A stretch of 64,000 nt of DNA from Bryopsis sp. KO-2023 (Eukaryota > Chlorophyta > Ulvophyceae > Bryopsidales > Bryopsidaceae). The position numbers and the translations under genes were made by a program. The notes below the pieces were generated by a model. It was not told where the DNA came from. It ran no database searches and worked only from the letters and a program-made list of their open reading frames with translations. Of the stretch, positions 40,681 to 46,427 are shown piece by piece (position 1 is the stretch's first letter; each line of letters opens with the position of its first letter). Location: contig BSYQ01000007.1 of NCBI GenBank assembly GCA_030272585.1, forward strand, positions 4,096,001 to 4,160,000. The letters are read 5' to 3'.

Positions 40681-43198
40681 TTTTAAGTTTTTTGTATTGT
40701 AATGGTAACCTGTGCAGCTTTTTTTCCGAAAAAAAAGAAATGGAGGGGTAAAATGGGACGGGTCTAAAAGAGAAGAAATGCACATGGGGAGCAGATTATG
40801 TGTTTTTTTGGGGGGTGTCAGGGAGGAAAAAAAAAAGATGATGGACTGTTGGGTGAAAAAAAAGAAAAAAGTGGGTTTACTACACGGGGCTCATCTCGCG
40901 ATCTGGGCAGGATTTTATACAGACGGTTTCTCTGTTCTTTTTTCTAGAAAAAAAAAAGTGTGAGATCCAGGAGTGAGAGGAAAAAAGACGGAAAAAAAGG
41001 AGTGTCCCTGAAAAAGGAGGAGGAGGAAGTAGGAAAAAAAGAGAAATATTGACAGGGTTTGATGTGGGGGGTTTTTTGGGAGGGGGTGTTTTAGGGGCGA
41101 AAGTATTTTCTGGTCAACATGTGATGGTTGTTTTGAGGTGGATTTGAAAAAAAGGGGTTTGGGGGGAAAAAGGGAGGGGAGGGGGAAAGCTTAAAAGGGG
41201 ATATGGGAAAAGAGAGAGGGGGGAAAAGGGATGGGGAGGAAATTGCCAGCAGTATATTTTTTTTTGTTTTGTCCTTTTTTTAAAAACTCTCTCCGATTAT
41301 AGCGTTTTTATGAAAAAGACCGCAATGGAAAAAAAAGGGAAAAAAAAGTGATCGTTTTGTTTGGTTTTTCATTTTTTTTTTTTTTTGGTTCTTTTTATGT
41401 ATCCTTTTTTCCGGTGCGTAATGATGTGATGGATGGGATGAGCCTTGGATGATTTTAGGTTTTACTTTGTGACGGGATTTTTCAATGATGGGGTTTCGGT
41501 ATGCATGCAATTTGTCTTTGTTTGGTGGTGGGGGAGTGTGCGAATCTTATGGCTAAAAAAAAGAAAAAAAAAAAGATGTCGAAACCTTTTTTTTTTTTGA
41601 GTTCATGAGAAGGGCGGTTTTACTTGCTATGCGCAGTGCGGAGGTCCGTTTTTTGCCGCCGCATGCGAACAGTGTATTATTTTGGTAGATGGTAGTCATG
41701 TGTTTAATTCTTTTGGAGGGAGAAAAAGCTATGCTGAATATGAAAACGACAGAGGAAAAAAAAAAAGGAAGGAAGATAGAGAGAGAAAAAAAAAAAGAAG
41801 AGAAAATTAAGAAGAAGAAAAAAAAACATGAAGAGGTAGCCAACGTTGCAAAAAAAAAAAAAGGAAAAAAATGCTCTACATCATTGATTAGCTTGATCTT
41901 TTTTTTTTTTTTTTTCTTCTCTTTACATTTTTTTTTTTTTGGTTGTTTTCCCTTTAATTTTTGTCAGTTTGTGTCATAGGATTGTGGTGGTAGTGTGTTT
42001 TTTCTCACCAGTCTATAGTTAAAAGACTTGAAAATTTCCTCCTTTAACCGTGTGTCAAAAGCTGCGGGAATAAAACAGGAAATTAAACCGTTTTATGCAA
42101 AAAAAAAGAAGCAATATCCAAAAGCAAAAAAAAAAGAAGAAGAAAATGGGAGAAAAGTACGATATATAAGTATGACCGACAGGAAAAAAGAAAAAGAAAA
42201 GAAAAAAAAACAGTAACAGAAAGATAGAGATGACCAACTACTTTTATGACAAAAAAACAAAGAAGGAAAAGTGTTTTTAGCCTGAATGCTGGATGGGAAA
42301 TTTCATAGCATGCGGGTGGATGTTTTTGAGTGAACTTTTATTTGGGGAAATGCTCGCTTTAATTTCATATCATCGTTCAGGGTGTAACAGCCCCCTCTCC
42401 AATCGGAAATTCGGTCGGAGTTTGTCCAAGCTGGGAACTGCGGGTTGCTTTGGCAGATTTTTCGTTCGATGCAGTTTTCTGAAAACGAGGGGTGGCTGTC
42501 GGGTAATAGGTGGCAAAAGAGTAAAGATATGATGGTGATCTATGAATGATTTAGTTGGCGGCAATTTGGGGGGGAGAAAAGGGGGGGGAGGGGAAAAGGG
42601 GTGAGAAAAGGAAAAAGAAAAAGGGGGTGAGGATCAACACATACATACTACGAAGAGGGAAAAAAATAGCAATTTATTTTTTTTTCCTCGTCTGTTTTGA
42701 ATTGATCGGGTGATTTTTCATGCGGCGTGATTGGGAGGAAAAGAAAGGTGTATTGATGTGCTACAATCATTTTAAACGACCCCTGTGGCATAGAGTTTTT
42801 GTGTGTGCGTGTGTGATTTTCCTGCTGAATGGCACTGTAAGTTTCCTGTTAAATGGCACAGCTTGTTTTTCTTTTAAACCTTGGCAGATGATACACCAAG
42901 TCTGACAGGTGTCCACAATCACTATCCAGGAAAATGACTTATAGTATCCTATGTACAGAAAGGAAAAGGAAAAAAAATATCCAAGCCTTATTGATTGTGT
43001 CCATTAACCCTCTGAAGAAAAATCAAACCAGTCCATCATTCCCTACTCTCCACATATTACATGGTTGCAAACAATTTTTTATTACAGACAATACCCCTCC
43101 AGCAGAGCTGAAAAACCGTCGAAAAAGTTTGCCTGACCGAGATTCCTCGAAGCTCCGACTCCACTCCTCCACATTGGTCTGCCACCATGCACCACATC
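40681..43198. other. low-complexity intergenic region
   Basis: No supported gene. 40.7-42.7 kb is purine-rich on the plus strand, with short T-rich blocks near 41360, 41590, 41900 and 42670. A small imperfect duplication of a TTTCCTG(C/T)T(G/A)AATGGCAC motif occurs at about 42819 and 42841. The stretch ends at the target duplication of the MITE. Confidence 0.5.
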
Positions 43199-43207
43199 GA
43201 GCTCTAG
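43199..43207 (+). repeat. left 9-bp target site duplication of the MITE
   Basis: GAGCTCTAG, identical and in the same orientation as 43552-43560. It directly abuts the GGC end of the left terminal inverted repeat. Confidence 0.85.
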
Positions 43208-43551
43208 GGCTGAATATTCAAAAATCACTATTTTGTCTTCTTTCATCACTATTTTAGTCAGGATAGCGTCACAGTCCGACAGTCGGCGCGCGCCGGTCTA
43301 CCTCGCGGTCGCTCGACGCGCGCCGGTCGCGCCGGTCTACCCCGCGCTTGTTTAGCCCACTCGCTTGGCGCGCGCCGGTCGCGCTAACCCTAAACCCTAA
43401 ACCCTAAACCCAACCCTCCTTTTTTTGTTCGTCGGACATACAGCATCGGAGTGACGGGAGTCGGACTGTGACGCTGTCCTGACCGACCAGGGCGACAGCT
43501 CGGAAAATAGTGATGAAAGAAGACAAAATAGTGATTTTTGAATATTTTGCC
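43208..43551. mobile_element. 344-bp Mutator-like MITE with telomeric repeats in its core
   Basis: The element is bounded by 48-bp terminal inverted repeats (43208-43255 and 43504-43551; 46 of 48 positions match) that start with GGC. It is flanked on both sides by an identical 9-bp direct repeat, GAGCTCTAG (43199-43207 and 43552-43560). A 9-bp target duplication and long terminal repeats starting with GG are typical of Mutator-like elements. A second inner inverted repeat of 24 bp (43257-43280 and 43460-43483, one mismatch) follows, with 20 extra bases in the right arm. The core is GC-rich, with GCGCGCCGGTC three times, then a CCCTAAA tract. There is no open frame, so it is non-autonomous. 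Confidence 0.85.
43386..43411 (+). repeat. interstitial telomeric repeat, CCCTAAA type
   Basis: Three perfect tandem CCCTAAA units preceded by AA and followed by CCC, inside the MITE. The same unit written on the other strand is TTTAGGG, the telomere repeat of plants and many algae and protists. Confidence 0.9.
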
Positions 43552-43560
43552 GAGCTCTAG
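43552..43560 (+). repeat. right 9-bp target site duplication of the MITE
   Basis: GAGCTCTAG, matching 43199-43207. It directly abuts the GCC end of the right terminal inverted repeat. Confidence 0.85.
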
Positions 43561-44357
43561 ACTCGTGACGTCGACAAACGGCTTCATCCTCCAGCCCAAA
43601 GCAGACGCCCTTCAACTTGTCCAGCGATGAACCATCTTTTCACCCTCACCTGATTTAAGCCCTTGGTCGAAGGTGAGCACCTCTTCACAGCACCTCTTCG
43701 CTCGGCTCCTTCGAAGCCGTGGTGAATTTTTTTTTTTTTGATTTCAAGAAAAGATGCACGAAAACTCGTGTGGAAGCAGCAGGTGGAAAATTTCACCACC
43801 ACATCAGAAGCAAGATGAACGAAGCAAGACACGACGGAGGATCAAACCCCACCTCCCAAGTCCGGCAATTTTCGAAATTGTCGTAAGGCGGACAGCCCTG
43901 ACAAGGTGGAACTGGGAAACGATTCTTCAGTTTACCCGGACGCTCCGATGTCGATAAGGGAAATCGACGAGGGACGCCCTTGTACATGGTGTCGAAAATC
44001 TAGACATCGTGGCAAAAAAAAACGCGGATCCTCCACATCTAAAACTTCAATTCGATCAAAAAACACTGAACCACCAAATCTAAATCAAGAATCCTGAGAA
44101 TCCACCAAAAAGATTTCCTCCTCTCACACCAAAAAGATGTATCAATGACTAATAGCTCTTCGGTTCCACACCCAATCACACACTAATAGTCCTTTGTCGT
44201 GTTTTTGCGCAGCCACGTGGGCCTGCTGTTTTGGACATCGTCGGGTTTGGTGTTTAAAACCGCGTTCTTCCAAGGTAACCTCTCGTTCCCTTTTATTTTT
44301 ATTTTTCCACGTTCAGAACTCCGGTCGACTCTTCCACACCAAGTTTGGTCCGTCTTC
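43561..44357. other. upstream region of the DEAD-box gene
   Basis: No separate gene was recognised. The frame of the helicase is open upstream of the chosen ATG to about 44199, where an acceptor-like TTTTTGCGCAG ends. A 5'-untranslated exon is therefore possible. A T run lies at 43729-43739. Confidence 0.4.
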
Positions 44358-46427
44358 ATGCTGGCTGGCTCGCGACGAGCCTTTCTGCGCGTCGTGATGG
44401 GGTCTGGTCGAGGAGGTGGTGGACGCAATCCCAATCACGCCGCAAGAGGAAACAAGAGGCGTCGCAGTCCTCCGTCGCATCTCCAGAGGAGCGACGAGAA
44501 GATGCCGAGATACCCCGTCGATGGCGTACGCTCGAATGGTGGACTCACCGCTGCAAGTCGAGCGGCCGCGGATGCCCTCTCCGGGATCCGGTCCGATAAC
44601 ACGCAGCTGGCGAGGAACATTTCGCAGCAGACGCGTCGATTCAGCGAAGCCGCCATGGAAACGGACGAGGTAGACGCGAACGGTGGTGGATCGTCTTCGA
44701 AGAGAGGACCCAATCCTAATTCTCGAACTTCGTCCACCACGTTATCGCAAATCACGGACGAGAGTTTCCAGAACTTGGAAATCCATCCAGCCACGAAACA
44801 AGCGATGGCCCAAGCGTTCGGTTATGACAAAATGACTAAGGTGCAGGCGGCCACCATTCCGGTGGGTTTGAGTGGGTCCGATCTTTTGGCCAAGGCTAAA
44901 ACTGGGACAGGCAAAACTATAGCTTTTTTGATCCCGGCCATAGACCGGGTGGCCAGAGAGGGTAGGAGGAGTCCCAAACACATTTCGGTGCTGGTTATCA
45001 GTCCTACCCGAGAGTTGGCTCAACAGATTGCTGAGGAAGGAACAGCTTTGCTGAAATACCATAATGAGTTGGCTTTGGATTGCGTTGTGGGTGGAACAAA
45101 TGTGCGTGGCGACCTCCACCGATTTCAAAAGAGAATGCCGGACATTTTGGTGGGTACCCCTGGAAGGCTGTATGATCATCTGGACAATTATGGGCTGGGG
45201 AGGAACCTGGAAGGGATGAAAGTGTTGATTTTGGACGAGTGCGATCGTCTGCTGGATATGGGTTTCCGTCGGGACATCGAGAAGATCTGTCAGAGGCTGC
45301 CCAGCAACCGACAGACGGTGTTGTTTTCTGCGACTTTGCCCAGCGATGTCGAATCCATGTGCCGAATCGCCTTGAAAAAATCGCATGAGTTTGTGGATTG
45401 TGTGGGTAAAGAGGAGAACACCCATCAACACGTAGAGCAGAGTTATGTGATTTCCAAAATGGAGCAGCAAGTTCCCGATCTTCTGGAAGTCCTGAAAACC
45501 GGCATGAGTGAAAAACCTTTCAAAATTATCGTTTTCTTCACCACGGCCAGGTTGACTCAGTTTTACTCGGAGCTGTTCAATCTTCTAGGGGTGAAAGTGT
45601 TGGAAATCCACTCCAGGAAGACTCAGGGCCACAGGAATAAAGTGTCGGACCAGTTTCGAAATGGCAGTAACTTGATCATGTTCACCAGTGATGTTTCGGC
45701 CAGAGGCATGGACTACCCGGATGTTTCCTTGGTGATTCAAGTGGGGATGCCAGCGAATCGGGAGCAGTACATTCATAGGCTTGGCCGTACCGCCAGAGCC
45801 GGAAAAGGGGGTGAGGGGGTGCTGATGCTCAGCTCCTTCGAAGAGTGTGTCCTTAGGGACCTGAAAGATTTGCCGCTCAAGGAGGGACGACATGCAACCA
45901 ATCAAGAGAGTTTGGTGCGCATATCTGAAGCTTTGAACAAATTGCCAAACGCGACGATTGGAGCGGCTTACCAAGCCTGGCTGGGGTTCTACAACAGCAA
46001 CCTGAGAAAGCTGGGCTGGGAGAAGGAAGATCTGGTGAATGCGGCCAACGAGTTTGCCGTCAGGGTGTGCGAACAAGATGAGCCTCCTTCGCTGAGGGCG
46101 CAAACGGTGTCGAAAATGGGATTGAAGGGTGTTGCTGGGTTGAGTATTGAGAGAGGAAGTTCTGGTGGTGGAGGTGGAGGTGGAAGAGGTGGTGGTGGTG
46201 GCAGAGGTGGGGGAGGAAGAGGAAGGGGAAGGGGCAGAGGAGGTGGTGGTGGTGGCGGTTATGGTGGTGGTGGTGGCGGTTATGGTGGTGGTGGTGGAGG
46301 ATCTGGGGGTGGTTGGGGCGGCGGTGGGGGAGGTTATGGGGATGGTGGTGGTGGTGGTGGTGGAGGAAGGTCGAACGGTAGAGGGGGTGGAGGTAGAGGG
46401 GGTGGAGGTGGTAGAAGGCCATGGTGA
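44358..46427 (+). CDS. DEAD-box RNA helicase, Mss116/plant RH31-like, with glycine-rich tail
   Basis: A single exon of 689 residues. Core motifs in order: Q-motif region MTKVQAATIP, motif I AKTGTGKT (about 181-188), PTRELAQQ, TPGRLYDHL, motif II DECD (about 293-296, instead of DEAD), SATLP, IIVFF, SARGMDYPDV and HRLGRTARAG. After the core, AAYQAWLGFYNSNLRKLGW and LVNAANEFA match the C-terminal extension of Mss116 and plant organellar DEAD-box helicases. The last 90 residues are almost pure Gly with Arg, Tyr and Trp (RGG-like). ATP-dependent RNA unwinding, perhaps for organellar intron splicing, is the likely role. The start chosen gives a basic N-terminus (MLAGSRRAFLRVVM) that could be a targeting peptide; a second ATG is at 44397. 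Confidence 0.9.
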   Translation: MLAGSRRAFLRVVMGSGRGGGGRNPNHAARGNKRRRSPPSHLQRSDEKMPRYPVDGVRSNGGLTAASRAAADALSGIRSDNTQLARNISQQTRRFSEAAMETDEVDANGGGSSSKRGPNPNSRTSSTTLSQITDESFQNLEIHPATKQAMAQAFGYDKMTKVQAATIPVGLSGSDLLAKAKTGTGKTIAFLIPAIDRVAREGRRSPKHISVLVISPTRELAQQIAEEGTALLKYHNELALDCVVGGTNVRGDLHRFQKRMPDILVGTPGRLYDHLDNYGLGRNLEGMKVLILDECDRLLDMGFRRDIEKICQRLPSNRQTVLFSATLPSDVESMCRIALKKSHEFVDCVGKEENTHQHVEQSYVISKMEQQVPDLLEVLKTGMSEKPFKIIVFFTTARLTQFYSELFNLLGVKVLEIHSRKTQGHRNKVSDQFRNGSNLIMFTSDVSARGMDYPDVSLVIQVGMPANREQYIHRLGRTARAGKGGEGVLMLSSFEECVLRDLKDLPLKEGRHATNQESLVRISEALNKLPNATIGAAYQAWLGFYNSNLRKLGWEKEDLVNAANEFAVRVCEQDEPPSLRAQTVSKMGLKGVAGLSIERGSSGGGGGGGRGGGGGRGGGGRGRGRGRGGGGGGGYGGGGGGYGGGGGGSGGGWGGGGGGYGDGGGGGGGGRSNGRGGGGRGGGGGRRPW

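Follow-up and report, generated by a model that had tools for sequence, protein, structure and literature searches.

Elements of the Mutator superfamily (MULEs) are marked by long terminal inverted repeats (TIRs) and by 9-bp target site duplications (TSDs) of varied sequence, and Pack-MULEs hold foreign DNA between such TIRs. Break repair or chromosome fusion is the usual explanation for short interstitial telomere tracts, and the Drosophila element DINE-1 reportedly contains a variable internal repeat. In Porphyromonas gingivalis a minisatellite is reported to lie inside a MITE (PMC4596501). The nearest parallel to the locus described here, which belongs to a different family, is provided by the TBEs of Oxytricha, four families of DNA transposons that differ in their TIRs but all bear the telomeric repeat of the host; these are Tc1/mariner elements with coding regions, with the repeat in the TIR and with ANT as TSD (PMC4724952). 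A search of the open-access literature returned no paper that brings together Mutator-like elements, MITEs, terminal inverted repeats and telomeric repeats, and on Bryopsis transposable elements and telomeres nothing related was found as judged by title. Here we describe a 344-bp element that we regard with good confidence as a non-autonomous Mutator-type MITE, one of a set of at least four TIR families with a single telomere-bearing cassette, in which the telomeric tract is a passenger.

The window, by which we mean the whole 64-kb stretch of DNA that was analysed (G000:C7:4096001-4160000), belongs to a eukaryotic, plastid-bearing assembly of 91.09 Mb in 28 contigs, of which C28 (91,672 bp) is taken by us to be the plastid, two of its open reading frames having been judged by eye as petA and psaC, and C27 (356,152 bp) is probably mitochondrial. 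The element occupies window positions 43208-43551 between two identical 9-bp TSDs, GAGCTCTAG, at 43199-43207 and 43552-43560 (neither with a strand), and the interval 43199-43560 delimited in an earlier note on this DNA includes both TSD copies exactly. The left TIR (43208-43255, plus strand, 48 nt) begins with GGCTGAATATTC and the right TIR (43504-43551, minus strand, 48 nt) ends in GAATATTTTGCC, the two arms being 96% complementary. One base inward of the left TIR starts an inner inverted repeat, whose 24-nt arms at 43257-43280 (plus strand) and 43460-43483 (minus strand) are likewise 96% complementary. The interior holds a GC-rich core with a 24-nt direct repeat that contains the unit GCGCGCCGGTC and is present in three copies, and these repeats run into the telomeric tract, (AACCCTA)3.7 at 43386-43411 on the plus strand, which together form the cassette. 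According to Tandem Repeats Finder the tract measures 26 bp with 100% matches and is the sole AACCCTA array listed in the window. The TIRs, the TSD, the inner repeat, the three GCGCGCCGGTC units and the CCCTAAA tract had all been pointed out in the earlier note, which was right in every particular checked. Folded as single-stranded DNA the element reaches z = -14.6 against 100 shuffles, and its structure is therefore not due to chance; no Rfam match up to E = 1 was obtained for window positions 43100-43660, and no tRNA was found in the window. As expected of a MITE, the element is shorter than 600 bp, non-coding and bounded by TIRs, and it exists in several copies of uniform length (six, 330-351 bp). 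A DEAD-box helicase frame (Pfam PF00270; window 44190-46427) opens about 640 bp downstream, and a telobox role of the tract in the region upstream of that frame is conceivable.

In a BLAST search of the genome with the element, 40 of 90 candidates were scored and the counts derived from it are lower bounds. At least six full-length copies, the one in the window included and with BLAST identities of 95-100%, make up family A together with partial ones. The copies and their duplications were observed directly: perfect 9-bp TSDs flank five of the six, all of them distinct (GAGCTCTAG, CAGACACTG, TTGGTCAGG, GATGTCAGA and GGTCTGACC), and the sixth, L043, has no TSD. Five further full-length copies dispose of the objection, anticipated in the earlier note, that the genome might hold no other copy. 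The A terminus is found at 17 genome places with up to three mismatches (10 left-type, 7 right-type; reversed control 0), which are accounted for by the six full-length copies, both ends of the composite element L077 and three lone left ends at C2:1960933, C4:5363238 and C1:2586652. Since the copy in the window and L039 differ at only one of 344 positions, family A has probably moved recently. The 178-bp left flank of the element is unique in the genome and no paralogous empty site was recovered. Several A insertion sites and their flanks (L039-L043) contain GTCTGAC/TGTCAGA-like motifs that recur inside cores too; the element may prefer such targets, or it may have inserted into a repeat that is itself dispersed.

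Most of the remaining BLAST matches span the interior of the element only, and when their flanks were read they turned out to be mostly other transposons. Family B elements are 260-286 bp long with the termini GGTTTATGCC...GGTACACC. Of the 15 B copies in which both ends could be recognised, 10 carry perfect 8-bp TSDs and 5 imperfect ones; the count derives from 16 loci, one of which, L047, is without a recognised left end. Family C has the termini GGCTGGCAATTAATTTTGCC...TTAAGTTTTTGCC, and its core-bearing copies measure 317-656 bp. Among its copies with both ends recognised, 10 of 12 show a perfect 9-bp TSD and 2 an imperfect one, a figure composed of 9 of 11 copies plus L113 and drawn from 19 loci in the main run, seven of them without a recognised end pair. 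Family D (287 bp) begins with GGACGGGACTATATCC, and its end occurs at 10 genome places, namely three pairs, each with a perfect 9-bp TSD (3/3), and four unpaired ends. A, B and C could not be convincingly aligned with one another in their outer TIRs. The interiors do align, with 90% identity over 209 columns between A and B, 88% over 113 columns between A and C, and 80% over 134 columns between A and D. On the element in the window, the segment common to A and the B elements with their 8-bp TSDs spans 43258-43465 (plus strand; identity 81-92%), and the core common to A, B and C, the telomeric tract included, spans 43330-43442 (plus strand).

The 9-bp TSDs of no fixed sequence that characterise Mutator (range 8-11 bp) are thus found in A (5/6), C (10/12) and D (3/3 pairs), and the TIRs of A are long (48 nt, 96%). 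On these anatomical grounds A, C and D count as MITEs of the MULE type; family B, given its 8-bp TSDs, may not be Mutator. MULE transposase domains gave 13 matches in the genome, 12 of them over the Pfam cut-off, and none was shown to lie with A ends. None of the 17 A ends at up to three mismatches could be linked to a transposase. Beside the unpaired end at C1:2586652, no right A end was found in the next 9.3 kb, the best candidate having 10 mismatches, and no frame of at least 150 aa there was recognised by eye as a transposase. At six MULE-domain loci, which form three groups of near-copies, none of the ends examined (both ends of one group and one end of each of the other two) resembles an A end. 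An autonomous partner of A was sought without success by the TIR search, in the 9.3 kb beside the unpaired end and at the six MULE loci. Since no transposase with matching ends was found, membership in Mutator rests on TSD and TIR anatomy, and of the earlier designation as a Mutator-like MITE the mobile TIR element with distinct 9-bp TSDs in five of six copies stands firmly, with the superfamily being assigned from anatomy. Two of the MULE-domain loci, L103 and L104 (G000:C7:5590800-5596800 and C10:4669700-4675700), are near-identical, with a 729-aa open frame at the domain match and internal tandem repeats, and a third such match lies at C5:1869208.

The composite L077 (G000:C8:5248800-5258760), a 9.8-kb stretch with A ends and without matching TSDs, was considered as an autonomous A element and rejected. 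It contains a nested LTR retrotransposon, judged by eye from its frames to be of the Ty3 type, and a nested C element as well as C-like arrays; the 300-nt LTRs of the retrotransposon are 100% identical, which suggests that it inserted recently. The C element nested in this A-ended composite (L067/L077) has a counterpart in L073, a C element within a B-type end with the flanks GTTTATGGC and GTTTATGCC. Such nesting offers a route by which the core might pass between TIR pairs.

That all these families share one cassette with one left junction was likewise observed directly. The 20-nt core tag TTTAGCCCACTCGCTTGGCG occurs at 49 genome places at up to two mismatches (reversed control 0), and an exact match to it is absent from viral contigs. 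All 49 places were read and assigned to A (8), B (17), C (17, with L063 and L074 entered here), the composite element on C8 (1) and undetermined or decayed surroundings (6). In 46 of these places the tag is directly followed by tract-like sequence. The three others are an interrupted case (C4:5363103), a decayed one (C3:4891152) and C5:4070255, where the core is duplicated and the tag belongs to its first half, with the tract coming after the second. By the stricter count of a perfect run of at least 14 bp, 40 of 49 places remain. The left junction CGCGCTAACCCTAAACCC is found at 71 places with up to one mismatch (reversed control 0), which by position comprise 43 linked to the tag, 10 tag-less ones beside a C end, one within L045 (an interrupted A element) and 17 new ones. 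Four of these 17 were read and proved to be three D elements and L123, a D-type core in other surroundings, while the remaining 13 are known by position alone and two of them adjoin a D end. Family D is without the core tag, yet its left junction into the tract is the same as that of A, B and C. The right junction CCCTAAACCCAACCCCCC is present at 48 exact places (control 0).

The tract was compared with the chromosome-end repeat of the host. Long CCCTAAA arrays stand at several contig ends; C1, for instance, opens with 3.9 kb of such sequence, and C2 closes with about 2.6 kb. This comparison, proposed in the earlier note, showed the heptamer of the element to be identical to that of the chromosome ends. 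Three CCCTAAA units in a row, taken as a 21-mer, match the genome at 8739 overlapping places (reversed control 1), and since the 100 places listed all fall at the start of C1, the bulk of them is presumably true telomere. Contig ends are not all telomeres: among the eight end stretches read, the array is absent from the starts of C2 and C12, and C7 begins with a 55-bp tract at its extreme end followed by a longer array about 5.4 kb in, its other end being partly masked. Within the element families, the tract consists mostly of two to four perfect heptamer units at one junction in four TIR families. In the A copies the length of the tract varies from fewer than two units to more than four. Several older, diverged copies carry imperfect units such as CCCTACA, and since these copies have the tract, it was probably already there before the present families spread.

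The same variation is also what would be expected if the tract had never been telomeric and a telobox-like motif, AAACCCTA, in the ancestral core had been expanded by slippage. This possibility, which we hold to be real although doubtful, would fit the differing tract lengths, the imperfect units in diverged copies and the outcome of a blastn comparison of the tract-masked element with eight contig-end stretches, not all with telomere arrays, in which no hit was obtained and an origin of the core from a chromosome end was not borne out. It accounts less readily for a unit that equals the chromosome-end heptamer and for the perfect units, mostly two to four, at one junction in four families. 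The telomerase RNA template was also considered as source of the tract and dropped, as four or more units exceed the length of the template, which is shorter than that, and as no Rfam match was found. 

A sample of 204 kb was searched for short tracts, consisting of the window, the core-bearing loci and other stretches fetched, minus contig ends, redundant loci, L046, L075 and L077. It contains 51 perfect tracts of at least 14 bp, of which 40 lie beside the tag and 11 elsewhere, but as the sample was mostly picked for holding the core, these figures give no genome-wide share of core-borne tracts. Ten of the 11 tag-less tracts retain the right flank of the core, the left side being changed in L073 and L117. 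The eleventh, in L069, belongs to a diverged copy whose right flank is a different one. Within the window, whose inclusion did not depend on the core, this element's tract is the only perfect one of at least 14 bp. In L069, at about 1569-1592 on the minus strand and near a C element, the diverged core holds both CCCTAAAA and CCCTAAA units.

The match to the true telomere repeat also invites the idea, raised in the earlier note, that chromosome ends are the target of the element or that it seeds new telomeres. The positions of the cassette speak against this. All 49 core-tag places are at least 113 kb from the nearest contig end, at a median distance of 1.31 Mb as compared to 1.50 Mb for random places (95% range 1.06-2.03), and 3 of them fall within 200 kb of an end as compared to 3.5 expected. 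No bias toward contig ends is thus observed, the distances referring to contig ends, which are not all chromosome ends, and insertions massed at chromosome ends are not seen. None of the TSDs seen is telomere sequence. Targeting or seeding is contradicted for this assembly, and we regard it as scarcely credible. What survives of the proposal that telomere-like seeds are being spread is the existence of dozens of dispersed short tracts; nothing was found in support of seed activity. 

A functional role of the cassette, in which putative TRB-type binding would aid movement, escape from silencing or placement and would hence explain its retention in four families, has to be weighed as well. The same block is found in four TIR families, and in 46 of the 49 copies with the tag the core is still followed directly by tract-like sequence. 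Moreover, A, B and L123, the copy with a D-type core, agree at every position of a 40-nt stretch (43370-43409, plus strand) that comprises the GC-rich end and most of the tract; this exceeds the identity of the surrounding sequence, so that selection or gene conversion may have acted on the cassette. In Arabidopsis, TRB proteins are reported to be associated with telo-boxes (PMC10167121). However, plain common descent can account for the retention as well, and one C element lacks the cassette altogether. B-type and C-type ends are also found where the core tag is missing. Seven such C loci were read: in six of them a portion of the core persists together with the tract, and the seventh, L115 (G000:C4:3736079-3736144), is a C element of 66 bp, remarkably small for a TIR transposon, that consists of its TIRs only and has a perfect 9-bp TSD. 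L115 suggests that, for C at least, the core is dispensable for movement. Seven tag-less B-type ends were also read, and a matching right end was recognised in none. On balance a functional cassette seems unlikely, and that the block is exchangeable and was acquired by several families through recognition by a putative telomere-repeat-binding protein, be it for silencing escape, for coupling transposition to telomere chromatin factors or for rewiring nearby genes as portable teloboxes, is quite improbable in our view.

Tag-less B-type and C-type ends would also be expected of cargo added afterwards, if each TIR family had captured the core independently from one host locus in the manner of Pack-MULEs. 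Against this, all four families have one and the same left junction, part of the core with the tract persists in six of the seven tag-less C loci, and no copy at a host locus was recognised among the 40 of 90 candidates scored, at the 43 of 49 tag places with assigned surroundings or at the left-junction places read, so that we consider independent capture improbable. The capture of telomeric DNA by this element itself, as had been suggested, is not supported either, since the same core and tract lie in three further TIR families.

In the reading that we favour, a passenger tract in a cassette common to at least four families, telomeric DNA would have entered an ancestral element once, either as filler DNA or by telomerase acting at a break. 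The cassette may then have passed among TIR families by nested insertion followed by deletion, or by template switching during gap repair, its copies being presumably mobilised in trans by a Mutator-like transposase encoded elsewhere, and the tract length could have drifted through replication slippage in a microsatellite-like manner. A set of short interstitial telomere tracts is here spread by transposons, and short tracts in this genome should therefore not be taken for fusion scars until the TIRs around them have been checked. With one core in four families and nested C elements visible, the locus moreover offers a traceable case of end-swapping around a common interior.

Compared with known systems, the element resembles MULEs and MULE-derived MITEs in its long TIRs, varied 9-bp TSDs and short interior without recognised coding, and in the presence of MULE domains in the genome; it differs in that no autonomous partner with the same TIRs was found, in that four TIR families share one core, and in that one of these families has 8-bp TSDs. 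It shares with Pack-MULEs the foreign DNA held inside TIRs, whereas its cargo was not recognised as a fragment of any gene, and the scan of 40 of 90 candidates yielded no donor locus. Unlike in the minisatellite MITE of P. gingivalis and DINE-1, the repeat unit in the alga equals the telomere heptamer of the host, and the core is common to TIR families. The TBEs of Oxytricha are distinguished from the window element, where neither a telomeric repeat within the TIR nor an ANT duplication is found: its tract lies in the interior (43386-43411, outside both TIRs) and on one side only, and the TSDs of the algal families are 8-9 bp long. In both cases, however, families with distinct TIRs all carry the telomeric repeat of their host.
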